Notes under the pieces: model-generated
What the model saw: the letters and a program-made list of their open reading frames with translations, nothing else
Database searches by the model: none
What the model was told of the DNA's origin: nothing
From: Phorcus lineatus
Lineage: Eukaryota; Mollusca; Gastropoda; Trochida; Trochidae
NCBI GenBank assembly: GCA_921293015.1
Contig: OV121088.1
Location: 21,799,645 to 21,863,644, forward strand
Length of the DNA stretch: 64,000 nucleotides
Direction of reading: 5' to 3'
Program-made: the position numbers and the translations under genes
Shown: positions 12,317 through 41,125 of the stretch, one piece after another
How the letters are laid out: every line of letters starts with the position of its first letter
Numbering within the stretch: position 1 is the stretch's first letter

Positions 12317-15300
12317 ATGTCAACCAACCAAGCTATGGAGAAACAGTACTCAGTTCAGTTTTTTACAACATTTGTAGCCAATCTTCAAAAACTCTGCCAA
12401 GCTTATGTCAAATTTGACAGGAATGTTGAAGTCAGTGGCTATCTCTGTGTGGAAGTTGACAATTCCAAAAAAGAACGCTATGTGTTGAGTGAGCTTATAC
12501 AGAACTGTGGCAGTGTAGTTAGTGAAAGCTATTGTACCAAGGTATTCCGCACCCTCCCCTTACTTAACACTCCTCAAAACACAGGAAAACCAGATGGAAT
12601 GGAGGCTTGGTCTCAGTCATCAACTGCAGGTGTGGATCGATCTCGCCCAAAAGTATCTCAGGAACGGAGAGGCAGCATTTCCAGCAATAAATCAAATGAC
12701 AACTATCAAGAAGGAAGAGATCTTGACTACAGTGGTTCCTCATCTTACAATTCTGACTCAATGGAACCAATGCGAACAACAGCTCAAAGATCCAAACGCT
12801 TGTCATTTGAACATGACAAGGAAAATGCAGCACGACTTTCACGTGACATCATCCAAAGACTGACAGGTGAAGCTCCTCCAAGAACAACAGTTGAGCAGAA
12901 CCGTAGTCGCCACCAAGTCCAGCGTAGGGAGAGTCTGCCAAGCTTTGCTCACATATCAAGCCGGATGGGGACCGCCAGCAGCAGCCACGCAACCCCTATG
13001 GAAGTCCTGGACCTGGAGTCCATCAAGGTGGAGGGTTCGCGCCACTCAGCCTGTGCTCAAGGTAAAGCTCAGTCAGTCCCCAGCAGCCCAGCTGAGTCCT
13101 ACCCTGGTGCGGTCCCTGTCGGCATCCATGCAAACCTCTCAAATCTTGGACATGTTGTGGAGGCTTTTGCTGGTGAGTCAGTCAGTTCCTTGACAACTTA
13201 ACACTTTTCAAGTGTCTTTACCTAATGTATGCTTAGCCTAGGGGAGTGACAGACTTGCCTACCCTTGCAGTTTTATTGATTACACAAGGCTTATTATATT
13301 TTGGTGGTGAATTATAACTTTACAATCATACTGATCATACTTATTCCTAATGACTTTTTTTAATGATTGATAATACACAACATTTAGGCATGAATTAGCT
13401 ATTTACAAGAACATTTATGGTACAAAAAGCATGTGACTTTGAAGCAAAGTGTATGTGAAACATTACTAAGGCATATTCTTTGCATCATGCTGGCCTGGTG
13501 AAGTAAAAGAAATGAAAAAAAACTTTTTCCTTCATTTGAATAACTTTGCCTGTTTCAGTTTTGCCATGTCGGTGTAATAGGAAATGAGCTTGCTAATTTT
13601 ATTGTATGAATGACCGCAAGGGAGGAACACAAAATGACCTTTGTTTACACAGGAAACAAAAGTCTATAAATAATTGTGCAACCTTTCAATCAAGTGAAGC
13701 CTTACTATCTAGCACACCTGCCTTGCTATTTTTGCTGATCTTCCTATTCTCCTAAGAAGGGGATAAGCAAATCTGAATTGTTCTAAAATAAGAATGGAAG
13801 TAGTTCCGTTATGTCCCTCTCATAGTCAATATCACCTAATGGCAACTGAAGTTGTCAGGTATGAATATTAAAGTTGCAATCATTCACTTTTCCCTAGTGT
13901 TTTCAAGTTGATACTACCTTTGATATATTTTCTATATTGAACATTGGTTATCGATGATTTTCCACTGCAGCCTCCAGGATGCCAATAGCACAACCAGCTC
14001 ACAGCAATGCCGACAGATTCCCACGTCTATCCTCATCCACCACAAACTCAGCCTCTTCCATCTCCTCCACATCCCAGCCTGTCCAGTCTTCCTCCTTGCT
14101 GTCTCATCTCCAGTCCCAGCCATGGTCCCCAACAGACACTCCCCGCCCTCGTGCCCTACCCACCAATCGCAGTCAACAGGAGGTCTTTATGCAGATGCTG
14201 CCCCAGGGCTATGACCAGGATGGGAACAAGCAGACAGTGCACATGGTAGACCCAGAATCACATCAGAGACTAGTTGATGGAGCTGCAGGGATGGACCCAG
14301 CAGATGTCATTGATCTTGAGATAGATGAGATGGATGGGGATGCCGCAAACAGCTCCATTGCAGATGTCAACCCCAGCCTTGGTCTCACAGGGATCGATCA
14401 AAGTGTCCTGTCTGACTACATGATGTCTTCTGCTCAAGCAACAGATGTTCAGAGAAAGAGGAATGCTCAATTGAACTGTCAGAGGTACGCGCTAAGACTT
14501 TTTTGTGAGTTTCATCAAAGCCACGCAGGAGCTGTGCCACCACTAGACAGCATTTCTTCTGAGCAAATGGACTCTATGCTCAGTATGTTCTATGCAACCT
14601 CCAAGAAGGGCAACGGGGAGGATTTCACTGTGAGCTCTCTGAGGAGCATTCAGTACTATCTAGAATCTCACTTGTTTGAAAACTACATCCAATCAGGATC
14701 CCGGGCTATCATTTTCAAGAACTCCCGACAGGCTTTGCGGAAACGCTGTGATGAACTCAGATTGAAGCAGAAATCCACTCCATCACATAAAAAAGCATTA
14801 ACATCAATGGATATTGATATCCTTTTCGAAAAAGGACAGCTTGGTGCCAGTAACCCAGACGTTCTTCTCAACACCCTGTGGTTCATGAATGTTATATGCT
14901 TTGGTATCAAAGGCAGCGAACACTTCTCCCTTCGATGGGGTGATATCATTCTAAATACAGACAAAGAGGGTCGACAGTTCCTAGAGTACTCTGGGTCTGG
15001 ATCGTCCACACAGTTGTCAAACTGTCACCGTGTCTACGCACTTCCACAAAACCCTTCTCGATGCTGTGTACATTACTTCAAGCAATACTTAAGCCATCGA
15101 CCAACTATCGCCCTTCAACCAGACGACCCATTCTACCTCACAGTGAACAACCAGTATGAGAGAGTGGGCAGTTGGTTCATCAAGGAGAAGGTTTCAATGA
15201 GCAGGATGACCGCAGTCTGGAGGAATATGCTCTTTGCCGCAGGACTACCTCCAGACAAGAAGACGCCAGCAGGATTTCAGAAGGGCCTGCTCATTCAGGA

Positions 15301-15361
15301 AACACTACCACCCAGTCCTTTAGCACTCTTCAAGTCAAAAGTAGAACCTGTGGATTCATGA
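12317..15361 (+). CDS. Gene A: novel N-terminal domain + Crypton-derived (DUF3504-like) domain
   Basis: There are two coding exons, 12317-13172 and 13971-15361. The donor (TG|gtgagt) and acceptor (ccactgcag|CC) join in phase 1 to give 748 aa. The second ATG (12335, MEKQYSV) aligns with the starts of genes B and C and may be the true start. Residues ~7-78 form the family domain shared with B and C. Residues ~80-445 are Ser/Asn/Gln-rich, with basic RRxS-type sites. VLDLESIKVE (230-239) combines a SUMO-interaction-like motif with an IKVE SUMO-acceptor consensus, and VIDLEIDE (398-405) is a second interaction-like motif. Residues ~446-716 match the tyrosine-recombinase-derived domain of ZMYM2/QRICH1/KIAA1958 (NGEDFTVSSLRSIQYYLE, then FGIKGSEHFSLRWGDI, PFYLTV, AGLPPDKK). 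The usual first catalytic Arg is Lys599, and the protein ends before the expected His/Arg/Tyr segment. It is probably a nuclear DNA- or chromatin-associated regulator, not an active recombinase. Function is inferred. Confidence 0.88.
13173..13970 (+). other. Gene A intron (phase 1)
   Basis: This 798-bp intron begins GTGAGT and ends TTTTCCACTGCAG. The exon 1 reading frame runs on for 9 codons past the donor before a stop, and the exon 2 frame is already open at the acceptor, so the junction is supported by frame and by both splice consensus sites. The equivalent introns in genes B and C occupy the same place after the linker, also in phase 1. Confidence 0.85.
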
Positions 15362-17654
15362 CTATTCTGAATGCTTTCTTTAGATATTGATCTCTTGTAA
15401 GTGGTCAGAACTACTGCTTTAGATACCAAGTAATTGACCATGGATGCTGTTATACAACCCCCTGAAATAAATCCTGAAATGAATTGCCAAAGGCAACATT
15501 ATGTTACTAAGTGGAAAAGACTTCCTTAGTGCTGTGTTTTTGAAACATTGAGTGTATCAAGGCTGGTTGAGTGCCAGTGAGAGAGAACAGCTGGCTCCTT
15601 AACAAACTGATGACCGTCTCTCTCAGTCCATCTGCAGAATTTGCAGGCAGCAGCAACTACAACAACCCTGGCTCACATTTCCTGCTGATTGATAACATGA
15701 AGGTGTTTTGAACAAATATTTGACACTATTTTTATGGTTAAAAACTTGAAATGGTTTTATCAAAGTCACTTTCAATAAGCTTTAGATATGATTTGTATAT
15801 TCTCCTTCCAATCTCCTTAGATACGTATAACAGTTAAAACAAACATAGTATTACCATTCAAAGTTCATGATGAAAATTAACTTTAAAATCTAGAATGTCA
15901 GTAGCGCAAGTTAAGTTCAGTGAAATGACATTTTGTTTTAATTTATTGAAGTGTCATTTTTCAAAAATTATTATGCCATAATTTCAGTAGACTTTGACTG
16001 ACAGACTAACTTATTGAATATTATAGGCTTGGTAGCATTTTCACAAGCCTCAGGCCTTGGTCAATTCTACAAGTGAACTACATATTGGCTTCCTTGTTTA
16101 TATTGTTCTTTCATGTTCCATTCTATAGTGACGTAAACCACAAATGACAAAATGACATCGGTCAATTAACTAAGATGTCATGAATATTATGAGGCAGCAT
16201 GTTTGTGTTAAAAAATCATCCATAGTAGAAACTGAAGTCATCCTATCTTTCTACAGCTAAGACCTAATTTGCTTTGTTACTACATTTTCTTGTTAAGATA
16301 ATGTTGAATACAAACCAAAAAGTCCATTGAAATTTCAACTTGTCCCAAAGAACTTGCTCCTGTGGTGCTGAACTGATTTCAAGCCTCCCCTTCATCATGT
16401 TACAGACTTATCATTCAATCATTTGATTCAGGACAGTCATTTCAAATCCAGTGGTTGTTTCAGTCTCAGTTTTGTAAACTAATTGTATTGGTGATTAGTG
16501 GTAAGCTCTTGAACGTCATGACATTCATTCTTTCACATAGTAGTATTTTATGCAAATCAAATTGTTACAATCAACAAAATGTTATAATTCAAATAAAAAG
16601 GTGAAGTCTTGTTAATCTCAAGCAAGCGCTGCACTCCAGCTAGCAGCCACCATCTTTACAGGTTGGATGTGAACCTTCTATCTTCTGGTTCACTGTTGCT
16701 ATCTCATGGAAAATCCTGGACTTTTTCCACATTCAGCTGAGGCTTCCAATGGTACCAAGAAATATTACTGTGCATGTAATATTTATGGTTGCATCTGACT
16801 AATAGATACAAAACTATATACAGGGTTCAGGTACAAAGTTGGAGGTTGGGTATATTTAGTGGTTTTCTGGCAGCATTTTAATTGTTTTCCATATTGTGAT
16901 CAATTCTTATTCTCAAAGAGAGATAGCTAACATTACAGACAAACATTTTCTATTGAAGCCTTTTTGTAGGCTTGCCGAGTTGAAGTTTATGTATCATGAT
17001 AGGTATCTGACTGTGAGCTCTGTTCTGAAATGTATATCCTTGCAATAGCCTAGTGTTTCACTGAAGCCTTTGGTTTAGCAACACAGGAACGATGTGGCAC
17101 CAGGAAACTCCTGCTGTTGAATTCACCAGTGCCAAACCTTTCTGACTTGCAAGTGAAATTCTCGGATCGGCTACTGATAAGAGATCGTTTTGTCTGGGAT
17201 GCCCACAGGAAGGGTTTATTGTTTAAACAGTGAGAGAAAGTTGTTAGAGATGGCTCTATATTCCTATTCACGGCTTTCTGTTTGTCAGTAGGGTTGGTGC
17301 CTGTTTGGAGTGTAATGAACCATTGTACAGTGCTGATTTGTGTCCCCCCCCCTTGAATTGTTTTGACACAATGGTTACTCCATTAGTGTGGTCTGCTACT
17401 GTTTGAAGCATAAATGTGCTATAAATGTTATTTCTAAATGTGTTTTGTGTTTTTAATCCTGTTTGTGATGTTATATATACAGGGTTGATTTTTTTCCTCA
17501 GATGTTTTATTATTTACTATGTTCTTCTATTTCAATTTTGTAGTAACTGTATTGCATACCCATATTTTAATTATAAAGTTAAAAATATATGTATATAAAC
17601 AGAATTTTATTTATTTATTCGACTTTTGTATGCTACATCTTTGTTTTGTATAAA
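15362..17654 (+). other. Gene A 3' UTR and downstream intergenic DNA
   Basis: An AATAAA hexamer at 15466-15471 lies 105 bp after the gene A stop and is the nearest polyadenylation signal. Another at 16592-16597 would give a longer UTR. No open frame with family resemblance follows. A C10 homopolymer lies at 17344-17353. Confidence 0.5.
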
Positions 17655-17847
17655 GCTTGAGTAGATGCATCTTCCTACGCAAAGCTTAACTATTGCCAGT
17701 CTCGAACTGTCCAAGTTAACCCTTGCTGCCGACATACGACTTTCCTGTGCTGATACCAGCGCCCCCTCTGGCGATTTTTAGTAATCTCCAGTTACCTCCC
17801 TTACCCTAACCAATCGGTGACGCCGTATCATTTGCGTGATAATCAAA

Positions 17848-17988
17848 ATGGCTGCGCCCATAGAAAGTGACCTGATCGATCAGATTACTAAGAAGTTTGC
17901 ATTGCAAACCTTTCAAACAAGAAGATTCAGTTTATAAATGTATTGATGGACGGAAAAGATGTTTTTGTTGTTATTAGGACCGGTTTTG
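17848..17988 (+). pseudogene. Broken 5' exon of a RecQ-like helicase
   Basis: An ATG in good context (aaaATGG) opens MAAPIESDLIDQITKKFALQ. After a frame change the sequence continues as DGKDVFVVIRTGFG. This matches the N-terminal core of RecQ-family superfamily-2 helicases: the FGFxxFRxxQ-type lead-in followed by the Walker A region (normally xTGxGKS). A possible donor (TTTG|gtaaat) falls exactly inside the Walker A motif, as if the Lys and Ser lay on a lost next exon. In-frame stops and at least one frameshift make it non-functional. It is cargo or an ancestral gene of the surrounding 9-bp-duplication element. Confidence 0.6.
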
Positions 17989-18407
17989 GTAAATAAATAA
18001 CATATGACTGCGCCCCTTATATTTTTTCAAATGGAAGTATGTAGGCCCATTTATCGTGGTCGTTACCATTATATAATTGTATTTTTTCATCAAATAAGTA
18101 CAGTAGCTGAAAAAATTTCTTTGTCATGTGCACAAGTCTCATTTTTTTATTATCCAACTGTTCACAAACACACGTACAAGCCAAACGGGAAACATTTCAT
18201 GGAGAGAGAATAATTTTTATATCAAGGCACATACGTAGTAACCAAAGTAATATTTTCAAAAATGAATATGACCCAATCAAATCAGTGAAAATGGAAGTAA
18301 ATATAACAATTGTTTTATTTTTTTAAATTTTGTTTATTGACGACATGATATTTAAATGGTACACGTCAACATACCTGGTTTTTGACTGCAAGAAGTAAAG
18401 TTTTATG

Positions 18408-18503
18408 CAATCTCATTGAAATAATATCTAAATTGCTACTCTCCGTTTCGCATGTACATGCGTAACGGAGAGTAGCAATTTAGATATTATTTCAATGAGA
18501 TTG
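18408..18503. mobile_element. 96-bp near-perfect palindromic mini-element with 9-bp target duplication
   Basis: The 40-bp arms at 18408-18447 and 18464-18503 are perfect inverted repeats (outer end CAATCTCATTGAAATAATAT). The 16-bp centre is itself the palindrome CGCATGTACATGCG with one unpaired base on each side. The whole is flanked by AGTTTTATG at 18399-18407 and 18504-18512, a perfect 9-bp duplication. It lies inside the 1.46-kb element, so it inserted later. It shares its terminal CAATCT/AGATTG and duplication length with 26504-26580. Confidence 0.9.
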
Positions 18504-19264
18504 AGTTTTATGAGAGTAACGTTTACTACCGCGATACAACAAGGTCACAGGCTACTACATTTCGAGTGTTATGAAATCGCGAGATGTTCAAATTTTATCG
18601 GTTCATTTATGTAAAATTTAATCAATGTTTCAGTTCAACGGGTATTCAATAAAGTTTTTGCAAGCACAAAAGATGAAAACAATTGTACGATGACAGGAAA
18701 TAAAGTCTTGCCGGGCGTAGTGCATCGAGTCGGTGCTTCAAATCAGGGTCAAGTTTATTGATTTTGATTAGTTTACCGAAGCAATTTAAGAATAAATTCT
18801 TTGACAGGCCGCTGTCCGCTATAGGGTTGTAGTAAAATAATAACGCAAATTGACTATAACCATAAATGAACTTGAATATATTGTTCATCGCTTTGGAGGC
18901 GGCACTTTCTCTTTACAAATCTTTCAGTCGACGGACTGCGACTTGGGCGCATCCATGTTTGTTCGAGTGCCCGGATTTAGCTTTTGCTAGGAGCTTTCTG
19001 ATTGGACTATCTAATTCCTTTGCAGTGAGTTAGAGAGCTAGCACAGGAAAGTCGTATGTCGGCAGCAAGGGTTAACTTGGACAGTTCGAGACTGGCAATA
19101 GTTAAGCTTTGCGTAGGAAGATGGAGTAGATGTAAAAGGGGGGTTCTGGATCAACGGGAAGTTTTTAATGTATGAAATACATTAAAAATGGAGAAAAGGT
19201 ATGAAATACATACATTAAAAACTTCCCGTTGATCCAGAACCCCCGCTTTTACATCTACTGCTTG

Positions 19265-19837
19265 AGAGTTTTTTCAATGTGAAAAAATAAGTTAATATTT
19301 TCAATGTTTATGAAAATATACACACAGTTATAATAACCTAATGACCAAATTATCATTGTTGAGCAATGTCCATGTTCTTGTTTTATTTAGACCAGAAACA
19401 TTTGTTTATGATGTATTTTGAAAACTTTTAAGCTTGTTATTTTATGATAAAGTTTCTGTATTCATTTGAAATGTAATGGTAATTTTTACCTCTTGATTGT
19501 ATGTTTAAGTTATTCAAATAACATAATATGATAATAATGTTTAGCTACTGTATAAAATATTCGTAAGTTACATTTTAAAATGAGAGAAGAAGCTAAAAAT
19601 GATTCCTCTGGAGCACAGGTTACCAGGTGACGGGCTACTGAAGGGGACTCAGCTCATACACTGGTTCTGCAAGTTTTGTTCCGCATAATTTGTATGTTTG
19701 TATTTAAAGTAGAAATAATAACCTTTAACCACATCAAGTATTCAGAAAGATTTATCATTGTCATTGTCTATGTTACTATACAGTAGTATCTTGGCAGTGT
19801 TTTCTTATTGGATGTATGATTGGATTAGTATATATCT
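19265..19837. other. No feature seen
   Basis: AT-rich spacer without a supportable gene or repeat. Confidence 0.4.
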
Positions 19838-20885
19838 TTAGCTCATCTGGCCTGAACGGCCCGTTGAGCTTATGGCATAGCATCTCGTCTGGTTGTTCAT
19901 CCGTAAACTTTAAATATTTCATCTTCTTCTCCAGAACCATTGACTCAGGATATCTGAAATTGTGTGTACCGACTGTTTGACAAATGAGGGCCACAGGGGC
20001 CACACTCTAAAATCATATCTTCATCTTCATCTCTAGAAGCAAAATGAGTAGAAAGCTAAAATTTTGTGTGGAGACAATTTGGAGTCTTATTTGAATATTT
20101 GGTGACCCTGTGGCCCCTAATATGGGCCACAGGGACCACGCCCTAAAAACTTACTTTCATCTTCTCCGGAAGCAAGAGGTCTAGAAAGCTGAAAATTCAG
20201 ACTCCTTAGCTGATGAGTATTCTAAGTTATAGATTTGGTGACCCTGTGGCCCCTAAAAAAGGCCACAGCAACCATGCTGTAAAAACCTATTTTCATCTTT
20301 TTCTCAAGAAGCAAAATGTGTAGAAAGTTAAAACTTTGTTTGCAGACGCCTTAGATAATAGGGATTCTGATTTTAATATTTGGTGACCGTTACCCCTACT
20401 AAGGGTCACAGTGGCCACACCCTATTAACTTATTTTCATCTTCTCGAAAAACAAGAGGCCTAGAAAGCTTAAACCTTGTGAACAGACTCCTTAGATAATT
20501 TGAAATATATAGATTTAAATATATAATTTATAGACCCTGTGAAGTCTAATAAGGCCCAGAGAGACCAAACCCTTAAAACCTTTTATCATCTTCTTCTCCT
20601 GAAGCAAGATACCTAGAAAGCTTAAACCTTGTGTACAGACTCCTTAGCTTTTGGGGATTTTAATTGGTAGATTTGGTGACCCTGTGACCTCTAATAAGGA
20701 CCACAGGGACCACAAGCACATTTTTTCTTCTTCTTCTATTGCTCCAGAAATGTAGGCCTAAATACCTAAAATCTTGTGTAGAGTCTCAAGCTGACAAAGA
20801 ATTTAATTAATGGATGTGGTGATCCTGTGGCAGCTCATATGGTGACCTGTGACTATTTATAAAATGAACTATTAATAGCCTGATG
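19838..20885 (+). repeat. Dispersed repeat with ~145-bp internal units
   Basis: It begins with an imperfect palindrome around AGCTCATCTGGCCTGAACGG, followed by about six or seven diverged units of 137-150 bp. Each unit contains GGTGACCCTGTGGCCCCTAA, GGCCACAGGGACCAC and TTCATCTTCTTCTC-type words. Marker positions (GGTGACC) are near 20101, 20237, 20382, 20532, 20675 and 20818. Related copies lie at 43083-43530 (reverse), 51883-52680 and 60360-60800. I take it to be a molluscan-type interspersed repeat; no coding capacity was seen. Confidence 0.75.
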
Positions 20886-23800
20886 AGCAACAGTGCCAGC
20901 AGCTCTATTTTTTTCCAGGTTATTATAGCCCCATCTGCAAAGTAGTAGGGGTATCAAATAAAAGTTCAGACTGTTGATTTTGTCAGTACAAGTAATGTTC
21001 AAAATTGAATGTGATCTCTATCACTTTTGTCTTATATTTTCAGACTATGTGTATGGATAATCAAGCTGTTCCTTTTAAACCCATCCCATCAGGCCTACTG
21101 GCCAACATGAGTTTATTGCATGGGCTGGTATCTGTCGAATGGCTGTAAACTATTCCATTTTTTTTACTTCTATAAAAATTTGTGTTCCCCATAAAGCTTA
21201 TACCATGATTCGTTGTTTTGATTTGGATTTAAAATACATAGCCGCTGGTGTGTGTCAATCAGTCAGATGTAGTTGATGGAAAGTTGTTGTTGTGAGATGG
21301 AAACTTAACCAAAGCAGACAAAAAGACAAAACTAGTTTTCATCTAAACAGGATGTCTGATTTGGCCTTCGGAGCATTTATAAAGGCTGTTCTCAAATTTT
21401 CATTGAAAACTATCATTTTCTATATATTTGGCATTTAGATATGAAAATGAGATATTTTCAATTCATATCAGCAGATAACATATTTTGAAACGCATTGAAA
21501 GTTATGAAACTTACATAAGGATTGGCTCTTAAAAGTCATTTGTTTCTTATGAAATGTTTTGTACATCCGATCGCTATTTTGCTCAAACTTGAGAACTCGG
21601 GTAAAAAAACTATTCTAACTAATTAATATTACCAGCTATTTCTCATTGTTGATTTGCATAATTCAATAGATTAGAGATTTGAGTGTCACTTTATCATCTT
21701 ATAGTCAACAGCATTTTCTTCATTCTATTTAGTATTAGAGGAATGGACTATGAAGGTAGCATGTTTCTATGTTAGTGGTTCATCGTTCAAATGTTTCACA
21801 ATCTTCACTGCAAATGCTGCCATGATTGACGAACGTGTTCTGGAGAATGTAAGCTCTGTTCATTTCAATCTTGTTGCCAGTGCTCATGTTAAATTTGTGT
21901 TTCAAATGTATGCAAATATCAAGTTATAATTGTAAACATATTTCCATTATTCTGGAAGTTTGTTGTAATTCAGTATTATCTTTACTAGTATGTACCATGG
22001 GTTTTTGTATGAACCATATAATATTATGCGTACATTCAACAATCATGGTTGGATCTGGCTTTCAGTATGTCGTAGAATACCATAAAAGCATTGATGATTT
22101 TATGTCAGTTTCAAAGAAGCCTGAATGGGTTTTGAATGTTGTAATACATACTGTGGTACAAGTCAGAAAAATGATGAAATCATGGTACAACAATATCTGA
22201 GGTGAGCAGCTTCAATTACTGATTGAAGTGCATTTGAGTGAAGTAGGTCTTCTGTTGGTAGAAATAGTTCTCCTTTCTTCAATGTATTAAATAAATATCA
22301 AACTGGAAGCCAAAGTTGAAGTATGCTATATTATAATTGATGCTCTGTTGGTTAGCTTTAGACTTCATAAAATATCATAAACATATTGTTTCAGATCTGA
22401 TTGAATTTTGATTTTATGATATTTGAATTTTCTCAAAGTCATAAATACATAATCTGTGGTTGACATTGAAATTGTTTTTGTATTGATTTAATTGAAATTG
22501 TTTTTACCTTCAGAAATAACACAAATAAGATTGTCCTCTCAAATTTTGTTTTAAAATGTATTCACATGGAACTATCAATTTCAGAGAGGAGTGTTATGTG
22601 TTATGGTTCGGTGTGTTCATTCCCACATAAAGGCCATTTTTCAGTAATAAAGTTCCTCCAAAAGTAAGCAAGTGACATAGTAGGTTCAACTGGCACAAGA
22701 GTGCAAGTGGAGACACTTCCTGCCGGTTCCTTCCTTGATCTCCTCCTGCCTGTCTTCATACACTGAACTGTTGTAGAATGTGATTGTCCCAATCAGAGTC
22801 TATTCACAAACTCGCAAGTCATCTGTTGACTGAAGGTTCACATAATTAACTCATTCTAAAGGTACATTAAAGGCAGGCTTAGAGTATTATATTCAATTTC
22901 ATATTCTTAAATGTACATGTAACACAGTAAAGGTTAAATCAAGCAAAGAAACATTCTCTGTTATGTTTATTAAACTGATTTATACAGGAACATTTCAAAT
23001 TGTATGGTAGGTCAGCATAGTAAATAAACTGACATCTGACCACATTAAGAAATTGAAATGTGGTTGTCGCTCAAAAAGCACTGTTTTTGTCTTGTGTACA
23101 AAGATGGTTAGTCCCAAATAGCCTCCATTGTCACATCAGATATGTTCTTGTAAGTTTGTTGCTTGTTAACAATGTTATATTGTGTTACGTGATTTGTACT
23201 GTGAGTTAAAGAAGTATGCCCCTTGTTTTCTACCTTTGGCAATATGGTGTGGAGTTCAACTTTGTTCAAGTGTTGTTGTGTTCCTATCCTGTCTGGCTCT
23301 TTCAGTGTTTGAATAATGGCCACTATAATTCCCGTAACTTTACACTTTCGGGCTGGATACTTAAGCTTGTTTCATCCACTATTTGTATTCACTGTTGCAG
23401 CACCGCACATCCAAATATCATAATATTTATCACAGATGAATTACCCTGAAATTCCTATTTATCGACTTTATATCTTTTTTTTACAATTTATCCATATATT
23501 TTACCTAGTCACAATGTTTATCATGTAGTTTGTGAATCATGTGTACATGGTTTACATTGTGTGAAATAGAAAAAGTATCTCCTGTGATTACCTAATATAT
23601 ATGATATATTAAAAAATAATTGGACACCCCCATCTGTTTTGTTGTAAATTTGTTGGCAAAACAACCGAAGCTATTATTATAAAATAAGTAGAGAAAGGTC
23701 TACGCCCCTTGAACATCTTCTGGGACCAAGATGCAACATCCATCCAAGCCCAACTTCCTTCCATGTGCTCCTGTTCTCATTGTGTGAATGAAAGTAAATA

Positions 23801-23935
23801 ACTCAAGGCTGATTCGGTATTTGTTATTGAGATAGCAAAAAAAGGACATAGAAATTATAAGTACGGTTAAAACATTCCTGCAAATTCACCTTTAGATATT
23901 GCAAGAGACCTACCTGTGCATACAATACCTGTAGT
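20886..23935. other. Intergenic stretch, nothing firm
   Basis: Open frames at 21871-22200 (+) and 22601-22792 (-) are short, without recognisable domains or convincing splice sites. The rest is AT-rich spacer. Confidence 0.35.
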
Positions 23936-23942
23936 GGGGGAT

Positions 23943-24880
23943 ATGGCGAGATAACACAACCTCAAATACCATCTTTATGCAGAAGATACTCAACTGTACT
24001 TAGGATTTAAGTCACTTGGTGCCAAGGTCAGGATAATGCAGTGGTTAGCGCATTGGGCTTCGGATCAAGAGGTCCGTGATTCGAATCCCGCTAGGGGCTC
24101 TGCAACTCTGTCGGCAGTAGAGAACTGTTCTGCATGCAGTAAGGCATGGGTGCAATGCTACACTAAATTTCAGTGCAGTACCGCCCATATTTCGCTAGTT
24201 CCAGCCGATGCTCGCAGGTTTCACCGCAATGCTGACATCAAATGCAGAATAAACTGACCAGCAGACTGAAATCCTCGACATTACATCAAAACAACTAAAT
24301 GCCAAAACTATTGTACCTAAGATTCAGATCAGAGGAAGTGTTGGTGTGCCATCTAACCAGGCAAGGAACCAACACGTTGGCAACATCTGTAAAACGGCTT
24401 ACTTTCATCTCAGGCAAATACAGCAGATTAGTAGATACCTCGATACACCGACAGTCAAGTGTCTAATCCATGCGTTTGTCAACTCCCGATTGGACTAATG
24501 CAACAGTTTGATTTTTGGAATCCAGGCCCATCATCTGCATAAATAACACCTGTATTGAAGAGTTTGCACTGGTTTCCTGTACGACAGAGAATTATATACA
24601 AGCTCCTGATGTTTCTTTTCAAATCTGTCCAAGGACTACTGATCACCAGTCTATTTCAAGGAGTTAGTGAGCGTCCACAAGCCAGAGAAAATGCCGAGGT
24701 CTGCAATTCAAAATGTCCTGACAGTCCCGCCTACCTGTACAGCAACATACGGGCACAGAACTTTCTGCTGGTGCTGTTCATTGTAACCAACTTCCTGAAG
24801 ACATCAGAAAACTTGAAGATCTTCAGATCTAGTCTGAAGACCATTCCCTTCAGCAGAACATACGGCTGAGCGCACATGAA
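23943..24880 (+). pseudogene. Dead CR1/L2-like LINE reverse transcriptase fragment
   Basis: The reverse-transcriptase active-site region is visible as HLYAEDTQLYLGFK (~23962-24018, with YAED in place of the usual YADD). After an inserted SINE the frame resumes at ~24280. It then shows VPSNQARN (~24338), HVGNICKTAYFHLRQI (~24362), LIHAFVNSRLD-stop-CNSLIFG (~24462-24520) and LKSLHWFPVRQRIIYKLL (~24552). These blocks, in this order, are characteristic of the C-terminal half of Jockey/CR1/L2-type non-LTR reverse transcriptases. In-frame stops, frameshifts and an internal deletion (the segment between QARN and HVGN is missing) show it is inactive. No 3' UTR or tail could be defined. Confidence 0.85.
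24028..24262 (+). mobile_element. tRNA-derived SINE inserted in the LINE
   Basis: It starts with a Pol III A-box-like TGGTTAGCGCATTGG (24042-24056) and a B-box-like GATTCGAATCCC (24078-24089) at tRNA spacing. A non-tRNA body then runs to about 24262. The LINE reading frame stops at the left edge and resumes after the right edge, which defines the insertion. The cloverleaf stems are too degenerate for a functional tRNA. Exact ends and target duplication were not resolved. Confidence 0.7.
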
Positions 24881-26503: not shown

Positions 26504-26580
26504 CAATCTAGTTAAAACTAGATGTAATGTCCTGTAGGACTTAGGGGACGTAAACATTACATCTAGTTTTAACTAGATTG
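26504..26580. mobile_element. 77-bp palindromic mini-element with 9-bp target duplication
   Basis: The arms at 26504-26530 and 26554-26580 are perfect 27-bp inverted repeats (outer end CAATCTAGTTAAAACTAGAT) around a 23-bp loop. The unit is flanked by CTCTTTTAG at 26495-26503 and 26581-26589, a perfect 9-bp direct repeat. It shares CAATCT/AGATTG termini and duplication length with 18408-18503, but the arm sequences differ, so the two are related by structure more than by sequence. Confidence 0.9.
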
Positions 26581-26589
26581 CTCTTTTAG

Positions 26590-28115: not shown

Positions 28116-28119
28116 TTAA

Positions 28120-28580: not shown

Positions 28581-28584
28581 TTAA

Positions 28585-31180: not shown

Positions 31181-31186
31181 TTTTTA

Positions 31187-31540
31187 ATCATGACTTATTT
31201 TCATGTAATTATGTATTTCACTACCACATTTGATCAAAATTAGATGATTAGTGAAGAAGTTAGCAGCCAGACAGTACTTGAAACATTTTTTTAACAGTCC
31301 TACAATTTTTTGCCCAAAATTGCAACATTTTACAGGAGTAATTTCAGAATTATTGATCATGACACACTTTCATGTAATTATGTATCTCCATACCTAATAT
31401 GATGAAAATCTGATGACTAGTTTAGAAGTTATGAGGAAGACAGGATTTGAAACATTTTTTCAACAGATTCCTCATTTTTTGTCAAAAGGCGCAAAATGTT
31501 TCAAAAATATTTTCAAAATTGTTAATCATGACAAATTGTA
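31187..31540. repeat. 169-bp tandem repeat, ~2 copies
   Basis: The marker ATCATGAC recurs at 31187, 31356 and 31525, exactly 169 bp apart. Each unit contains TTTCATGTAATTATGTAT and a GAAACATTTTTTCAACAG-type block. The copies are diverged and no coding frame is seen. Confidence 0.75.
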
Positions 31541-31720
31541 ACACAAATTAGTGTTTAGTCAAATTCTGGTTTTACACATATATCAGACAACAAAGTTAAA
31601 AAAAATTCTTTTAGCTGGATAACAGTTCATTTATCAGCCATGTGACCCATTCACAACCATTTGGACTGATATCTATCAGTGTTCTCAACATATGATTTAA
31701 TATAATGTCAAATATTTTAA

Positions 31721-32164
31721 GTGACACAGAGTATGTTTTATTAATTTTGTATGTGGCTTAAATAAGAGCCAAAATAACATATGTCTTGAGTTAAGATCAA
31801 ATTGCCTTTCTAAAGTTACATCTTTATCTCTAAAAACTAGTAATAAAAAAACGGCCACATAAATGTTAAAAAGCTAAGCACTACTAACCTGCGTTCTTCT
31901 GTAAATAAGTTTCCGAAATTATATTTGAGTCATTGGCGCGCGCGCCGATGTCCGTTTTTTCATCACAAATTTTGACTTTAACCTGTTTATTGTCTTTATA
32001 CTAAATTCAATTGTACCCTTGGTCTTATGGCCATATATACTGAATAAAGCTGTTCTTCTTCATAAGCATTAACTTGCAGTAAGAAAAGAACATAACTTCC
32101 CAATAAAATACCACTGCTTATGAAGTTTGACATATTTGACCAAGAAAACATACTCTGTGCCACT
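31721..32164 (-). mobile_element. TTAA-flanked MITE, copy 4
   Basis: This 444-bp reverse copy lies between TTAA at 31717-31720 and TTAA at 32165-32168, with ends GTGACACAGAGTATGTTT and AACATACTCTGTGCCACT. It lies 203 bp beyond the gene B stop codon and may fall in that gene's 3' UTR; it includes a TTTATT (AATAAA on the minus strand) at 31986-31991. Confidence 0.85.
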
Positions 32165-32367
32165 TTAAGTATAACATATTATCCTATTCATGAAACAAAA
32201 TATTCAAGTTAACTTAATTGTCATACATTGTCAGTCAACCTTTATGTCTAAAGACATTCTCTGATCCAAGTAACCATTGAAAGTCAGAAAGTAAATGTTG
32301 GCATAAACAAAACAAACCTGGTACAAGACTTCACAAGCGCAGAAATCTATTATCCTGATTTGATCTT

Positions 32368-35034
32368 TTAAAGTATATCAAAATCAACAATTTGCTTGTC
32401 AGGTGGAATCCCTGACTTAACCAACATGTTTCTCAGAATAGCATTAATATCCCTTGATTCCATTTTCTCATTTTTCAAAACATCACTGTGTTCATCTACT
32501 GCAAGATAAAATGGTGCCATAGGACTTAATGAGTTTTCTGGTCTTCTCCTCTCAAACAATTTATACATCTTGACAAAACAACGGTCTGGGTCTGCATTGT
32601 TGGGGTAAACCTTGTTACACGGGGTGGTCTGTGCAGACCTACTCAGCTCCAGATACTGATTCTGGTATTCATCAAGCTTCAGCGTCACGTCACCCCACTT
32701 CAGCAAACAATGATCGTCCTTCCTGACCTTGAAGAGCAGTGTATTCATGAGCCACATGGAGTTGGTGAGAGTCCTCACATTGCTGTCACTCAATATCTGG
32801 TCTGCTCTGAACATCCTGTCCACATCACGTCTCGTTAGAATGTGCTGTACTTCTTGAATCTGCCTTATTTTAGTCTGTAATATTGATCTACAGTTAGAAA
32901 ACTCTGTGTCCCTTGTAATTGAAACTGGGTATCCATTTTCTCGCAGATATAGCTCTAAATATGACGGGATGCTTTTTAAAGTACTGGTACCAAAGTCTTC
33001 TCCTCGTTTGTTACGTACAGTGACATAGAACTCAGCCAAAAGTGGGTCAAGTTTTGTGGTAGGGATACGAAAAATTGGTTCACTTATGCCTTTCTCTTTG
33101 GTAAAAGCTTGGAAACGCTTCACAGCAAATTTGACATAATCTTTGAAAGTGTCAAGTGTCCGGAGTTCCTTTACAGCATATGGTTCACTTTCACATTCGA
33201 GGTCTTCCTCCTCATCGGAGTCAAGCTCAATGATGATGGGACTGTCAAAGTTGCAAGGGTCATCAACCTCGTCCTCTGAGATGGCAAACTGGCAGGAGTC
33301 AGCATCCTCAACGGAAGTCAGGGTGGAGATGCTGCCTGCATCCAGCATCAAGGAGGAGGACACAGTGCACGGAACATCAGCTCCTGGAGGTAACAACACA
33401 GACTTTCAAAGATGTTGATTTCTACAAAGTGTACAAGAGCTTGACACTATGGTAGATTACAGACATGTTTTAGGCATATAAACAGCTTTTTATGTGCAAA
33501 GGATGAGTGATCATCATACATTCTACCTTATGAGACATAACAAGTGTCGAGTTGGAAATAAGCCCAACATAAAAATATACTATTGTTTTTCAATATTATC
33601 ATGCAAACAGAAAATTGGAAAAACAAGAATTTCAGAATGAAGACTTCAGACAGGCAAACAGATGTTTTAATTGGCATAACAACATGGCAATGCATGTTAA
33701 AACCATTTTAGCAGGGAAATAATGAATAATGCAAAAAGAGGTAGACAAATATTAGGAAAACACACTTGAATTAACTTCAAAAGAAGACAAATCAAGTGTG
33801 TAAGCACCCACAACTCACCAGGACTCTGCATTTTGGTTTGAGTGGGGAGATCAGGTGGCTCTGCTTCCCCAGGCAGATCTTCGAGGGAGATGATAGCTAC
33901 GCCCCCGTCCTCCCCATCCTTGTCCTCCTTGTCCCTCCCGTCCTCAGCAAGCTCAATGTATGCCTGGCCAGGCAAAATATCCTCAGTCCCACCCACTGGC
34001 CGCTGCTCTAGGGTCGCTGAGTCCTCGTATGACTTGGACACCAGGTGGCGCAAACTAGACACATTCATGTCAATAGGGATCAAGTCCTTTGGTTTTGAGC
34101 AACTGGGCCTTGCTTCACTTGATAGCAAACTTCCAGGACTTGTTTTTAATTTGTTTATTGATGCCTTAAAGGAAGATGACTTCTTTAAAGATCTGGGTTT
34201 CTTGGATTTAAATTTAAAGAGACTAGGGAGGGAGATGGGAAGCCTTGATGAAGAAGGGTTTGTTGACAGCGATTGTGGCTTAGAAGATGGATCTTGTCTC
34301 AAGGATGTGCTCAAAACAGGATTTGTAGCAAAGTGTACTTGTGTCACTATCTCATCGTCAGAACTGCTGGAGTCTGGTTTGGGTGATCCAAGAGAGTCAA
34401 CAACCCCTGATACAAAGTCTTGGAATGACTCTGTTCTGGGCGGCGACTTCTCAGAACATGTGGACATCCATTTAGCTGAAGAAGCCAAAAATGATGAACT
34501 TCTTGATTCAATTTCAACACTACAACTTGACTTAGGGAGTTTGTTTGAAGAGCTTGCCATAGACTTCCTCGCAGTATGTTTAGCTTTCTTCAGCTCTGGC
34601 TCTTCTGACAACAATGAAACTCTTTGTTCTGTTGATTTGTTTGAATTTTTATGCTTTGGGTTTTGAGAATTGTCAAACAAGGAAACAAATGTTGCTCCTG
34701 AGGATTTACTGCCCTTCCCATCATTGTTTTCTTGTTCACAGACTTTACTGTTCTCTTTGTCTTCATCTGCTGCAATGCCTCCCGACTTATTTCTATCTCT
34801 TACATTCACTGGCAAGTTCTTATATACTTTGGTACAGTAGCTTTCGCTTAGGATATTGCCACAAGCCTGCAGAAACTCACTCAGCACATACCGCTCCTTC
34901 TGCGAGTTGTCAATCTCCACACTCACATACCCGCTCACCTCTACAACCTGGTCAAAGGTTAAATGTTCTTGGCAGATGTTTTGGAGACTCTCGATAAATG
35001 AAGAGAAAAACTTCACTGAATACTGTTTCTCCAT
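32368..35034 (-). CDS. Gene B: novel N-terminal domain + Crypton-derived (DUF3504-like) domain
   Basis: On the minus strand there are two coding exons, 35034-33819 and 33383-32368. The donor (CCTG|gtgagt) and acceptor (ttacctccag|GA) join in phase 1 to give 743 aa. Residues 1-~72 are the family domain (MEKQYSVKFF; VEVSGY; KERYVLSE; SESYCTKV). Residues ~80-405 form a Ser/Lys-rich linker with a strongly basic stretch (FKSKKPRSLKKSSSFK) suited to nuclear import. VAIISLED (379-386) and IIIELDSDEEED (455-466) look like SUMO-interaction motifs, the second in the classic hydrophobic-then-acidic form. Residues ~480-735 match the tyrosine-recombinase-derived domain of ZMYM2/QRICH1/KIAA1958 (KRGEDFGTSTLKSIPSYLELYL, LLKWGDVTL, APFYLAV, SGIPPDKQ). 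Arg626 aligns with the first catalytic Arg, but the protein stops just before the expected His/Arg/Tyr block. It is probably a nuclear regulator, not a recombinase. A 5' UTR acceptor lies at 35055. Confidence 0.88.
33384..33818 (-). other. Gene B intron (phase 1)
   Basis: This 435-bp intron on the minus strand has donor GTGAGT and acceptor GTTACCTCCAG. Splicing joins ...KMQSP to GADVPC through a shared Gly codon and keeps the frame. The intron position matches genes A and C. Confidence 0.85.
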
Positions 35035-35054
35035 TCCTAGATCTTATATTTTAT

Positions 35055-38000
35055 CTGAAAAATTAAGCATTAGAGCAAAATGTAAAAAAAATCATTGAAA
35101 ACCAATTGATACAAATGAAATGACTAACATCTTTAAATAAAATCTTAATCTTGATGAATTAGCTACATTATGTGAATTATAGTTTTTGCTTTTCTCTTAC
35201 AAAAACAACAAATATTTGTAAACAAGTTATAAATATTTTTAGATTACAAGGGTTTTATAATCCAAAAGATTGCGTGATGGTAATAAAAATATATTTGAAG
35301 AATTGTTTTAATTAAAAAAATATATTAATCTAAAATATATCATCGAAATTGTTTACAAAACACATATAGTTCCTGAGAAATCTAATTTACCATAATCTGT
35401 AAAATTAGATGACTTAAAGTAAATGAAGCGCCATAAATTGCCACAAATCAAGCATGCAGACAACGGTTGGAACCCCCATCACCCACGAAGAAGAAAGAAG
35501 AAATCAAATTCTCTAATTGTATCTAATGATGATACTAAATGGAGTTTTCGAATTTATCCAATTAATAGCTTGTTAATTAAAACAGAAACCAAGTTTTTCA
35601 ACGTTGACAGTCATTCTCAGGTTCATTAGCATCAGAGTCGGAGTGACCTCTCTAAGACCCGGAAGTAAATCTCGAAGGAAGTGGAACCGGGCGGTACCTC
35701 AGAAATTGATATAACATCTAACAGTACGCAGAACATTGCCTCAAGCTTGATACATTTAACGCGAATATTAAAAAATATCAACTGAATAGTGGAAATATTA
35801 GCACAATACATATATTGTTGGGTGTTTTTGTCATTCACATAGTAAAATATTATCTGCTTCAGCGTTATGATTGATTAAGGTGGCGTCAAGGTAAAATAGT
35901 TGTGTTTTAATAATGGTCATGATTTGAGAGTAATATTATTAGATAACTTATATCATTAACATTTTGATTTTTGTTTTTTTTGCAGTCCCCGCTTTTTCCA
36001 CACAGTTGTAAAATATTATTAACTCGTCATAAATAATTGGGTTTAAATTACAGAGACATATAAACGAAAATGAGTGCATGAATATATCTGCTGATATTTG
36101 GAAATATGCGGATATATAGCAGGTGTATTTGAACAATTCGTATTTTAATTAATTGATTTAAAGCCGGAAAGAGTGCCGTGGTGCCGTGAACACGCGTTAT
36201 TCTTTGTCAAATTGCAAGACCTTCAGCAACCACATGTTAGACTCAGTACCTTGCTTGTAACTGATTGTGAAATATTACAGGAAATTGTCCCCTTTAATTT
36301 CGTTTCCATAAATCCTTTATATGAGATACGTTTAAAACAGCGACAAAACTATATAAGACCTAATCAAAAATGCGAAACAGGTTTATCATAAAATTCTGTT
36401 TTAATTTCGCTGTTCTAAAAGGAAAAGGTCACAGCATTTCGAAAGTTTGATAGGATGGTTCTTCAGGATGTTTATGAATGCATTTAATAAAGTTGTGATG
36501 TGTTTTTATAATGACAATGATCATTCTTACCTTATCTTTGGTGTTCAACTAACATACTTGGTCAGTTATCCTGAGGAATTGGATTTGAACAATTGTTGCA
36601 TACAGCCTACGTTAAATGGAAACAAACCTTATTTTTCTGTTTTCTTTTATTCTTTATATACATCAGATCTAGCAAGAGACAACGAAAGTGTACATGCAGA
36701 TGGCCATATATCTATTGATATATTTTGAATCAACTGGCTAGGACAAGACATTTACACAATTTGAGTAAAAACAGCTGTCTTCCTATTTTTACATCTAATG
36801 TTGTGATGTTGCTAAAATGACTTTAGAAAAACTATGAAAGGTCCACTGCCATTCATGTTTGAGGCGATCGCCCTATTCCAGACATTCAAACAATGGGTTC
36901 ACAAAATACAAAAAAACATTCTGCATGACCTTTTTATTTATTACTCAGGTAGCAATGTTATTTTAAATATCTTAACAGTAAGGATGCATTTCCCGTTTAT
37001 TTCCATGCGATATGCTTTAAAACATGAAATTGTTATTGTCTTTTTTAAGTCTAAACGGTACCAATAATGCAAAAACCCTTTTCATTGAAACCGAAAACAA
37101 TAATAAGGTGCTGAAACCTTTCTTATATTACCACAAACATTTGTTTTATTACTTGAAGGACGACCCAAATCATCATTTCACACTAATCCACTTAATTTTG
37201 ATACAAAAACGTAATAATTGTTTGATAACCATAGAGTACCGCGATGCAACGATTGAGGCCTCAGGCTAATTTAATTGTTTCGGTTTGCACTGGTTAACCA
37301 AAACTAACGATGACCCATCGCACTGTAGCTTCTAATGTATGCCAAACTTAAATATTTGATTTATGTGCATAATAAATGAGAATAAGAGTCAGATCATGAT
37401 GATGATGATTTGAAAACACCTTCCGTATGACTCGATGAGATTATGAATAGAAATAAAGTTTAGACAAAATTCCTTTCATCTGTTTTCTTTTTTTCGACAT
37501 TAAAGGTGAAGGAATTTTTAACCATGTATATCAAACACATTACATTATATTAAGAATCCTAGCAGATTTTGAATAGATGTTACTATTATTTTTCATCACA
37601 ACTTGTTCTTGACAACAGATGTCTTTTGATGTGACCGCTGACCCTTGACTAGTCGTGTTGAAAATAGCATCTACTCGTTTATTGACCTCACATATCAAAA
37701 GAGTTTTGTTTACACAGTAGGCAATATATCATTATTATTACAGTGTCGCTTCACCCTCCATTCGCATGCAATAAATTATGAATTTTATGCCTCCCAATGC
37801 AGGATATCCCCGTCAAATTGATTTCTAAATCGTAAAGTGAACCTCGTGCTACATACATGAGGCCCACAGGTAACACGTAAAATCACTGTTGTGGTGGCAT
37901 TCAAGCAAGGGACGTAATTTCGTTCTGTACTTGAAGTATCTGATACAGGTACTGTTGCAAGCAATGTTGATATTAGAATAATTTCCTTAATTGATTAATT

Positions 38001-38626
38001 AATTAAGCTTCTAATTAGAGTAAATGAAAAGTCAAAATAAGAAATCTTTCGAAGAAATATTAGAGCTTGTTATATTTAGTTGAGTTTGGTGCTTATAATT
38101 TAAATTACCATTTAATGCTTAATAATAATGCATGTAAACAGGACAGGTAATTTCAGCAGTGCTACTGGATTTAAAGTGAAAAAAAATTGATTAATATTTG
38201 GAAATTTTGACATTTTAATCAATTTATTTTTGCAGTCTTTGAACACATGTATGTAACAGTACTTTGGAAAGTCAGAGCTCCAGATAATTATTTGGACTCG
38301 GGTATTTCACTCCTAAAATAAAAATTGAGGAGTAAAATTACTTAAGGAAAAAAACTAGGAGTATTTCAAGATTTATCCTTTTCAGATCCTCATTCCAAGT
38401 CAGCATTTTTTTCGATGTTAGTCGTTGATTATATTTTCCACATGTCTAATCTGTAAATAAATGAGTGATTTCTCTTTGTTTTCATACATTCCTATGTGAT
38501 ATAAGTGAAATACTCTTGAAAACATGATCGCCCAAATCACCTCACCTCACCTCATTCCATCCTTAGTCAGATGAAATCCTAATGAGTGAAGTTATTGTTA
38601 ATCAATACTTTGTTTTATTGTTTCAG
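35055..38626. promoter_or_regulatory. Divergent intergenic region between genes B and C
   Basis: Genes B (leftward) and C (rightward) start head to head with 3.6 kb between their start codons. A 3' splice acceptor lies just before each start (minus strand ...AATTTTTCAG at 35055 for B; ...TTGTTTCAG at 38626 for C), implying untranslated first exons inside this interval. A comparatively GC-rich patch at 35630-35700 contains CCGGAAGT (35659-35666) and AGGAAG, ETS-type sites common in core promoters, and could be the gene B promoter. No TATA box or first exon could be fixed. No other gene was seen; small frames near 36173-37269 have no recognisable content. Confidence 0.4.
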
Positions 38627-38634
38627 TTTTCAAG

Positions 38635-40343
38635 ATGGATAAACAGTACTCTGTGCAGTTTTTCACAAATTTTGTTGAAAATCTTCAAAATCTGTGCCAT
38701 TGCTATCTAGACTTTGAACAATCTGTTGAAGTCAGTGGTTATGTGTGTTTGGAAATAGACAACATAAAAAAAGAGAGGTTTGTCCTCAGTGAAATCATTC
38801 AATCAAATGGTCGATCTATTAGTGAAAGCTATTGTACAAAGGTCTTCAAATCCAGCCCAAGTAGTATGATACAAAGAAACAACTCTCACCAGGATATCAC
38901 CAACCTCAATCATGACCAAAGATTACAATCATCTCATGAATTGTCATTTTCACACAGAGTTCCTGGACATCAAAGACCAAAATTTGGACAAAGTGTTATT
39001 TCCCCATCCTCATTAAGATCATCCGGTACTATGTCTCAACAAAAACACAACACCCTTCGGAAGAGTCAATTTAGAAATGAGAGCGTGATAGGAGCACAAA
39101 GATCTTTCTCGATGAATGAGAACAGAACCAAACGCTTTGATGAAGAATCGAGGTTGATCGTGTCAAGAATTAATCATTGCTCCGGTGAGTTGTCAGACAA
39201 CACTGCTGAACGAACGTTGTCTGATGCAGCTGACACAGAATCAGCTGACGATGGGGACATCATCATCGTCAAGACAGAACCAAGACCATCGGAGGATTTA
39301 AGAGATTTAGGGGAACCTCCACGGGAAGAGAAAAAAGGAGAATCACTCCGACTCCCTGATTCACTCATGTCTGGTAAGTCATTACTATTGTTTGGGAGGT
39401 GAGATGTTTTTGTCTTTTAACAACTTTCATTAAGTATGAGTTTACTATTATTATTGACCATCATAAATTGGAAGAGTGAGATATCTGTCAATCTCTCCCT
39501 CTTTCAACTTGTCCCACTTTGTTTTGGCACATTTACTTGCAATTGGTTGAACATATCTCAATGCAACTCTTTTAAGAAATTATGGAGACAATTGCAATAG
39601 AAGTATGGAGTAATTGCTGAAATGGTTCATTTAACTTTGGAAACTATTCAGAAATTAAATTATTTTGATGAAGCAGATCAACAAGTTTGACAAGTTGACA
39701 ACTAAATGATAAAAGCTTATGGACAATGTTGAATATTCAGCAAGAGAGAACAGTGTTTCACTTAGTAGCAATCCTTACATTTTCTATTTCAGGTGAAGGA
39801 CCGAATACAATACTTGATGAAGAGTTTTCAGAGACAATGCCAAGTATAGATTTCAATACCTCAGATTATGATCTGCAAATGAACTCTTATCCATCAACAT
39901 CAGCCTTCAGTCATGGGCTGTCTATTAATACACTGACAATATTCAACAACATCCGACCCACACCTCATGTCGTAGATACCCCAGATGGGAAGAAAATCAC
40001 ATGCTTGTTGTGTCGAAATGTTGCTTGGTCTGAGGCTGACTTTGTGCTGCACATGAAGGTGCACCCCTCTTGCAAAGAGTGCGGTCACTTCCTCGTCTCC
40101 CACATGGACCTGCGCTCACACATGCAGAAGGAACATGGGCGCACCAGCATGTTCAAGTGCAGCTTCTGTGACAAGGTGTTTCTCAGCAAGGGGGGGATGA
40201 TGGAGCACCAGAGACTCAAGCATGAGAAGACTGCCCCCAGATTCGTCTGTGTCATCTGTAGACATGTCTGTGTTCGTAAGCGCCACCTAGAGGACCACAT
40301 TGAGAATGTTCACAAGAAGAAGGCTACTTTAGATATCTCATAG
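38635..40343 (+). CDS. Gene C: novel N-terminal domain + four C2H2 zinc fingers
   Basis: There are two coding exons, 38635-39373 and 39793-40343. The donor (GTCTG|gtaagt) and acceptor (tctatttcag|GT) join in phase 1 to give 429 aa. Residues 1-~72 are the family domain (MDKQYSVQFF; VEVSGY; KERFVLSE; SESYCTKV). A Ser/Asn-rich linker follows, then IIIVKTEP (209-216), which combines a hydrophobic SUMO-interaction-like core with a VKTE SUMO-acceptor consensus. Four C2H2 fingers follow: Cys317/Cys320-His333/His337, Cys340/Cys343-His356/His361, Cys369/Cys372-His385/His390 and Cys399/Cys402-His415/His420, all with 12-residue C-to-H spacing. Linkers are not of the TGEKP type. The protein has no recombinase-like domain. 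It is probably a sequence-specific nuclear DNA-binding protein. Exon 1 is preceded by an acceptor (ttgtttcag at 38626), so a 5' UTR intron is likely. Confidence 0.9.
39374..39792 (+). other. Gene C intron (phase 1)
   Basis: This 419-bp intron runs from GTAAGT to CATTTTCTATTTCAG. It joins ...LMS to GEGPNT through a split Gly codon, the same arrangement as in gene B, though different in residue from the split Ala of gene A. Confidence 0.85.
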
Positions 40344-41053: not shown

Positions 41054-41078
41054 ATACATACATACATACATACATACA

Positions 41079-41125
<47 letters not shown>

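Follow-up and report, generated by a model that had tools for sequence, protein, structure and literature searches.

Introduction

The Drosophila gene lola codes for a BTB transcription factor with at least 20 isoforms, which share their N-terminal region and differ in their tails, mostly of the C2H2 zinc finger type; differing DNA specificity of these isoforms has been reported (PMC5127561, PMC7299341). Here, we analyze a 64,000-nucleotide stretch of the Phorcus lineatus genome (the window; assembly GCA_921293015.1, contig OV121088.1, called C13 below, positions 21799645-21863644), which contains three genes, A, B and C, with a shared N-terminal domain (the head) and different C-terminal domains (the tails). 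We propose, with a probability of about 0.62, that these genes belong to a snail family of lola-like nuclear regulators with a non-BTB head and exchangeable tails. The snail family differs from lola in that its head is not BTB by Pfam, its tails include an apparently dead tyrosine recombinase, and it is found at about 20 places in the Phorcus lineatus genome and not at one.

The recombinase-type tail, DUF3504, is also found in the Crypton-derived genes KCTD1, KIAA1958, ZMYM2-4, QRICH1 and WOC. According to a report on such genes, many DUF3504 genes are transcription regulators, and no function of the domains themselves had been reported as of 2011 (PMC3212892). In these genes, as in the snail family, DUF3504 is without most catalytic residues and forms part of a longer protein, and KIAA1958 likewise has two isoforms with different DUF3504 exons. 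However, the consulted parts of that report do not describe any of them as having this head or as exchanging DUF3504 for zinc fingers (PMC3212892).

A search of the open-access literature, going by titles and abstract openings, found no description of the snail family, in agreement with the initial annotation of the window, which knew of none. While flies have a system of this type, this head and a recombinase as an exchangeable tail appear undescribed in the searchable literature. The SCAN, KRAB and ZAD families also combine an N-terminal interaction domain with variable C2H2 arrays. The snail family has a different head, and we know of no case in which those families swap fingers for a recombinase domain.

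Results and discussion

Gene structures and the shared head

The initial annotation described a common N-terminal module in A, B and C, joined in phase 1 to a Crypton-type tail in A and B and to four C2H2 fingers in C. This finding is real, and wider than the trio first described. When rebuilt, each gene has two coding exons with an uninterrupted reading frame, and all three introns are in phase 1 with GT-AG ends (Table 1); the joining of heads to tails by splicing is predicted from sequence and orthologues. The part common to the three proteins is the first ~75 residues (73-75), while the rest of the head exon is a poorly conserved linker. The best local scores between the first coding exons are 301, 282 and 295, compared with at most 76 in shuffled sequences (300 per pair). 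A head profile built solely from proteins of other animals was run on 1495 six-frame stretches of the window and picked out exactly three domains (E 3e-40 to 2.4e-38; next best 0.099). The disappearance of the similarity in profile searches, which had been named as an outcome that would speak against the shared module, did not occur, as the profile recovers the trio.

In the head DNA of the three genes, conservation lies mainly in the first two codon positions. The A-B and A-C comparisons give ratios of nonsynonymous to synonymous substitutions (dN/dS) of 0.06 and 0.17, respectively, at nearly saturated silent sites; for B-C no value was obtained. Identity to a single Haliotis orthologue per gene is 75-89% over the aligned residues of the head, 60-79% in the DUF3504 domains, 67% in the fingers and 31-57% in the linker part of the head exon. 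By these figures, the linker is fast-evolving, while the head is constant and strongly constrained. An alignment of 59 head rows has 15 invariant columns, and in a set of 19 rows that includes the divergent copies of the Phorcus lineatus genome only 4 of 73 columns are invariant.

No significant match of the head to a Pfam family, a PDB sequence or a PDB fold was found by Pfam, PDB profile and Foldseek searches. For BTB, Pfam gave no match to 19 heads at E up to 10, a search limited by the HMMER filters, which drop most matches above about E 0.1, and none to the head exons at E up to 1; a BTB resemblance noticed by eye was dropped, since Pfam gave no support. The best weak Pfam match (DUF6272 in one of the 19 heads, E 0.0019) and a single PDB profile match (E 0.52) were judged to be chance. 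Two AlphaFold head models, with mean predicted local distance difference test scores (pLDDT) of 63.6 and 67.7, have one fairly confident helix (~residues 7-24) and a weaker beta part, and Foldseek searches with them gave nothing better than E 0.33.

By analogy with lola, the head may be an oligomerisation or partner-binding module (PMC5127561, PMC7299341). It would bring the proteins together or recruit a common partner, while the tail would pick the DNA target. It could also be that the tails bind DNA and that the head has another role, e.g., as a docking site for a chromatin complex or as a nuclear retention signal. The lack of a match to known dimerisation families agrees with this, as do the models with their single fairly confident helix; no evidence speaks directly against it, and the strong constraint on the head is compatible with both readings. 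We consider such a role a real possibility, although short of probable.

DUF3504 and C2H2 tails

Pfam and our own profiles confirm the two tail types. The tails of A and B are alike (score 367, at most 66 in shuffles), while the tail of C is unlike both (30 and 34, within the shuffled range). The Pfam cut-off for PF12012 (29.7 bits) is passed by A, and B is just below it (Table 1). With a profile from the DUF3504 tails of relatives, A reaches E 1.9e-102 and B E 1.4e-84. The fingers of C are above the Pfam cut-off for PF00096 (28.9 vs. 25.2 bits). A six-frame scan of the window with DUF3504, BEN and Psq profiles found the two DUF3504 tails and nothing else significant, and the C2H2 motif occurs as one run, in gene C, and as one isolated match at 41003.

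In neither A nor B is the WGD motif followed by an HxxR; from its W to the end, 141 and 109 residues remain, respectively. Our DUF3504 profile matched 36 relatives, 27 of them with a WGD-type motif and 26 of these 27 likewise without HxxR; the exception, P0001, has two HxxR strings, which by eye lie outside the catalytic place. At the position that we take to be the first catalytic arginine, A has K and B has R, by eye. A and B do not have the intact R-H-R-Y tetrad of an active Crypton, and because no HxxR follows the WGD motif, the two proteins are very unlikely to be working recombinases. The nearest proteins outside the family to one DUF3504 tail were two vertebrate KIAA1958 homologues (34%), among candidates of ~344-1094 residues; ZMYM2-4 presumably fall outside this range because of their length.

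Relatives in other snails

Two protein searches with 56 and 103 matches gave 132 different relatives, all found through their head. The named sources are only Haliotis (rufescens, asinina, rubra and cracherodii) and Gigantopelta aegis, and since the searches need shared five-letter words and restrict candidate length, distant kin could escape. In the head tree, A, B and C each have a separate Haliotis orthologue, with A next to P0001 (100/99), B to P0005-P0007 (100/95) and C to P0015, P0017 and P0023 (98/93). The H. rufescens partners are LOC124111704, LOC124111701 and LOC124111699, or isoforms of LOC124111699, and the trio is probably syntenic with H. rufescens.

Tabulating what lies 3' of the head, as the initial annotation had suggested, gave 34 DUF3504, 66 C2H2, 11 BEN-type and 10 Psq-type tails, with none recognised in 11. 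The raw profile count of 35 DUF3504 included P0086, which was removed as it matched through a linker shared with P0087; the same linker explains a mixed DUF3504 and zinc finger label ('duf+zf') of P0088. The fingers of relatives were counted by motif and not by Pfam, and the BEN and Psq profiles were built partly from proteins later counted with them. Psq is above the Pfam cut-off in P0076 and BEN in P0124, while P0117, P0118 and P0120 (Psq) and P0068 (BEN) are below it; Psq is also annotated in the search table for P0066, P0067, P0077 and P0123. BEN was seen by eye in Haliotis P0015 and P0018 with no Pfam match at E 0.1, and these tails are hence called BEN-like only.

By sequence, each protein consists of a ~73-residue constant head, a linker and one C-terminal module. 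This module is a set of C2H2 fingers or a DUF3504 domain, which is a tyrosine recombinase lacking the HxxR part; BEN-type and Psq-type modules occur in relatives as well. A link to DNA binding is established for C2H2, BEN and Psq domains. From these tails and DUF3504, we infer that the proteins are nuclear DNA-binding regulators.

Different tails behind the same head

The relatives were grouped by exact prefixes of at least 150 residues, which gave 59 groups, 16 of them with at least two members. In Gigantopelta, different tails follow stretches of 284-385 identical residues, and the largest prefix group comprises 19 proteins, no two of which have the same finger tail. A single locus may offer some 20 tails in this snail. 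In a group of nine, seven start with the same tail, and a group of eight has Psq-like, BEN or C2H2 tails. Gigantopelta P0086, P0087 and P0088 are identical over 367 residues and continue into an unrecognised tail, DUF3504 and seven C2H2 motifs, respectively. They are named isoforms X3, X2 and X1, with a locus number visible for P0086 only. The H. asinina orthologue of gene C follows this pattern, as the fingers of P0017 match the C exon of the window, P0019 has another finger set and P0018 a BEN-like tail. In the annotated proteins of relatives, the same head stretch thus leads to many tails, and either DUF3504 or C2H2 can follow one stretch.

These differing tails would be alternative 3' exons of one locus. 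Ancestral loci may have carried several alternative tails behind a common junction, and duplication followed by loss of all but one tail would then give genes with one tail each, such as DUF3504 in A and B and C2H2 in C. The DUF3504 tree, with 14 of the 16 Phorcus lineatus tails (without the shortened L021 and L022, see below) and 11 chosen relatives, groups the P0087 tail with those of the vetigastropod L018 and P0022 at 99/99; in a tree without L018 and L023 it stood with P0022 at 80/54. The initial annotation also suggested comparing a tree of the head with tail type; in the head tree, with the mixed locus set aside, the label DUF3504 vs. other has to change at least four times. From the 59 groups, that tree left out P0008, the tail-less P0057, P0063, P0064, P0127 and P0130, and P0056, whose head is cut. 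Both the placement of P0087 and the label changes fit multi-tail loci that were duplicated and then lost tails.

Head copies in the Phorcus lineatus genome

A search of the 958-Mb genome found 20 head matches at E 0.001 or better, which is a lower bound, and 10 kb around each of the 17 further heads was scanned with our own profiles and the finger motif. DUF3504 follows 16 of the 20 heads, A and B included, and a run of C2H2 fingers only gene C; overlapping finger-motif matches in a 28-residue frame of L017 were judged to be chance. Head and DUF3504 share one open frame in 10 of the 17 further copies (L010-L015 and L019-L022, with DUF3504 shortened in L021 and L022), and DUF3504 is in a later frame in L009, L016, L018 and L023. 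The head of L017 is on a 908-residue frame with no known tail, and L024 and L025 have divergent heads with no tail matched by these profiles.

A phase-1 donor and acceptor, given in A, B and C, are available in L009 and L016 (among other candidate sites), L023 and L024. In L018, the donor is of phase 1 but the acceptors at the DUF3504 frame are of phases 0 and 2 only, and since none matches the donor, a further exon is likely. The head of L023 (9284-9700, minus strand) is split by an intron within the conserved RYVLSE motif, in phase 2, and a phase-1 intron precedes its DUF3504 exon (both by eye); this split head may be the older gene structure. The junction residues of the 19-member Gigantopelta group are incompatible with one phase-1 donor. 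Going by these predicted structures, the equal phase-1 junction holds for A, B and C but not universally, given the single-frame copies, L018, L023 and the Gigantopelta junctions.

The divergent head of L024 (280-1227) carries a donor of phase 1. A basic frame rich in arginine and lysine (5746-6174), 4.5 kb downstream behind a phase-1 acceptor, is a possible further tail type. In L025, a divergent head (238-1071; 30% identical to that of gene C) is followed by a 1254-residue frame of repeated helix-turn-helix-like units (3908-7669) with a weak HTH_Tnp_1 match. This frame is possibly another tail, but the splice sites disagree in phase, with the best-looking donor in phase 2 and acceptors in phase 0 or 1. 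The second half of the L022 head (9497-9715; the same gene as L011:4592-4810) is nearly identical in letters to its cluster neighbours, L012, L014 and the first copy of L011, and the first half is strongly divergent, which looks like gene conversion or unequal exchange within the head, near the position of the L023 intron. Downstream of the head-DUF3504 gene of L013 there is a 589-residue open frame of a short tandem repeat (5814-7580).

The initial annotation treated the head's coding exon as the first exon. An acceptor-like site, i.e., at least 10 pyrimidines of 15 within 70 bases upstream of the head start, precedes the head in 17 of the 20 copies, compared with 16.8% of 10128 control ATGs (same DNA, both strands). 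Only A, L018 and L023 are below this threshold, with 4, 9 and 0 pyrimidines of 15, and the heads of L019 and L025 do not start with ATG. Because of these sites, the head's coding exon is probably the second exon, behind a non-coding one, in the single-frame copies as well. All 10 single-frame copies have such a site, which weakens a simple retrocopy origin for them.

The copies could also mean that the head belongs to the protein of a Crypton-type mobile element and spread with it, in which case the C2H2 version would be a host gene that captured the head. The predominance of DUF3504 tails and the single-frame copies, many of them clustered on C13, agree with this. However, a lower bound of only 20 heads in 958 Mb, the lack of HxxR in A, B and nearly all relatives with the WGD-type motif, and the acceptor-like sites before the head of every single-frame copy argue against it. 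In addition, 9 of the 14 Phorcus lineatus DUF3504 tails in the DUF3504 tree pair with one of nine Haliotis tails. We therefore regard spread as a mobile element as highly improbable.

Origin of the tail differences

The initial annotation pointed to exon shuffling or retention of a modular first exon. The shared head, the equal phase within the trio and the swapped tails hold up, but the explanation is too unspecific. In classical exon shuffling, the head exon would have been copied by illegitimate recombination upstream of unrelated DUF3504 and C2H2 genes with matching phase-1 introns. A head exon with an acceptor-like site before it in most copies and, in the trio, a phase-1 donor after it is suited to this, and the unrelated origin of the tails and the repeated label changes on the head tree also agree with it. 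However, the annotated isoforms have DUF3504 and C2H2 after the same 367 residues, so the linker is shared too. We find exon shuffling unlikely; alternative 3' exons with duplication and tail loss are simpler, because annotated isoforms share the head and differ in the tail.

Several observations weigh against a lola-like family with exchangeable tails. Well-supported branches of the head tree, which has 73 columns, force only 2 of the 4 changes of the DUF3504 label. Each window gene shows one tail, and no second tail for C was found within about 83 kb downstream: neither tblastn with Haliotis and Gigantopelta tails nor the BEN, Psq and DUF3504 profiles gave a second or third tail in the window. 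In the 60 kb beyond it, five Haliotis tails used as tblastn queries and these profiles again gave none, and the finger motif occurs at three isolated places only. In 10 of the 16 DUF3504 copies, head and tail share one frame, which leaves no intron at which tails could be exchanged. The multi-tail isoforms are database annotations, splicing of the trio is predicted from sequence and orthologues, and the AlphaFold monomer models of the putatively dimerising head are weak and match no fold.

We see an even chance that snails evolved a second lola-type system independently of the arthropod BTB genes, with a new constrained head and interchangeable DNA-binding cassettes that include a domesticated, dead tyrosine recombinase. 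If so, the combination of a single head with many DNA-binding tails, as in flies, had more than one origin, with different heads, and the family would directly exemplify how zinc fingers and a domain derived from a recombinase can serve as interchangeable parts. What DUF3504 domains do would then become a testable question, as would the way in which regulator families specific to one lineage acquire new DNA-binding domains.

Features of the window

Table 1. Coordinates of the A, B and C gene features in the window, with the supporting evidence and the comparison with Haliotis proteins.
Feature	Position	Strand	Evidence	Haliotis comparison
Gene A, head-coding exon	12317..13172	+	opens with MSTNQAMEKQYSV; open frame, GT donor at 13173, phase 1	63% identity to H. 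rufescens P0001 residues 1-289
Gene A, shared N-terminal domain, 73 residues	12335..12553	+	profile match E 3e-40	68/76 residues same as P0001
Gene A, tail exon with DUF3504 (Crypton-type tyrosine recombinase)	13971..15361	+	AG at 13969-13970, phase 1; PF12012 63.7 bits	
Gene A, Pfam DUF3504 match	14816..15229	+	residues 287-424 of frame 13958-15361	
Gene B, head-coding exon, phase 1	33819..35034	-	open frame and donor	matches H. rufescens P0007
Gene B, shared N-terminal domain	34816..35034	-	profile match E 2.4e-38	
Gene B, tail exon with DUF3504-like domain	32368..33383	-	Pfam 27.5 bits; own profile E 1.4e-84	55% identity to P0007 residues 422-780
Gene C, head-coding exon, phase 1	38635..39373	+	open frame and donor	42% identity to Haliotis P0015/P0016 residues 1-262
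Gene C, shared N-terminal domain	38635..38853	+	profile match E 4.3e-39	
Gene C, tail exon with four C2H2 fingers	39793..40343	+	Pfam C2H2	57% identity to H. asinina P0017 residues 282-447
Gene C, four C2H2 fingers	40002..40313	+	four motif matches	
Acceptor-like CAG 8 bases upstream of gene C ATG	38624..38626	+	12/15 pyrimidines; probable end of 5' untranslated region intron	
Acceptor-like CAG 20 bases upstream of gene B ATG	35055..35057	-	10/15 pyrimidines	

The window also contains minisatellites at 5959-6310, 49706-50339, 50705-50897 and 51389-51868, with units of 24, 60, 57 and 65/195 bases, and the long open frames at 5908-6315 and 49740-51067 arise from these repeats. A run of about 56 G (96% matches) is found at 8049-8104, and an ATAC repeat of about 18 copies at 41054-41124.

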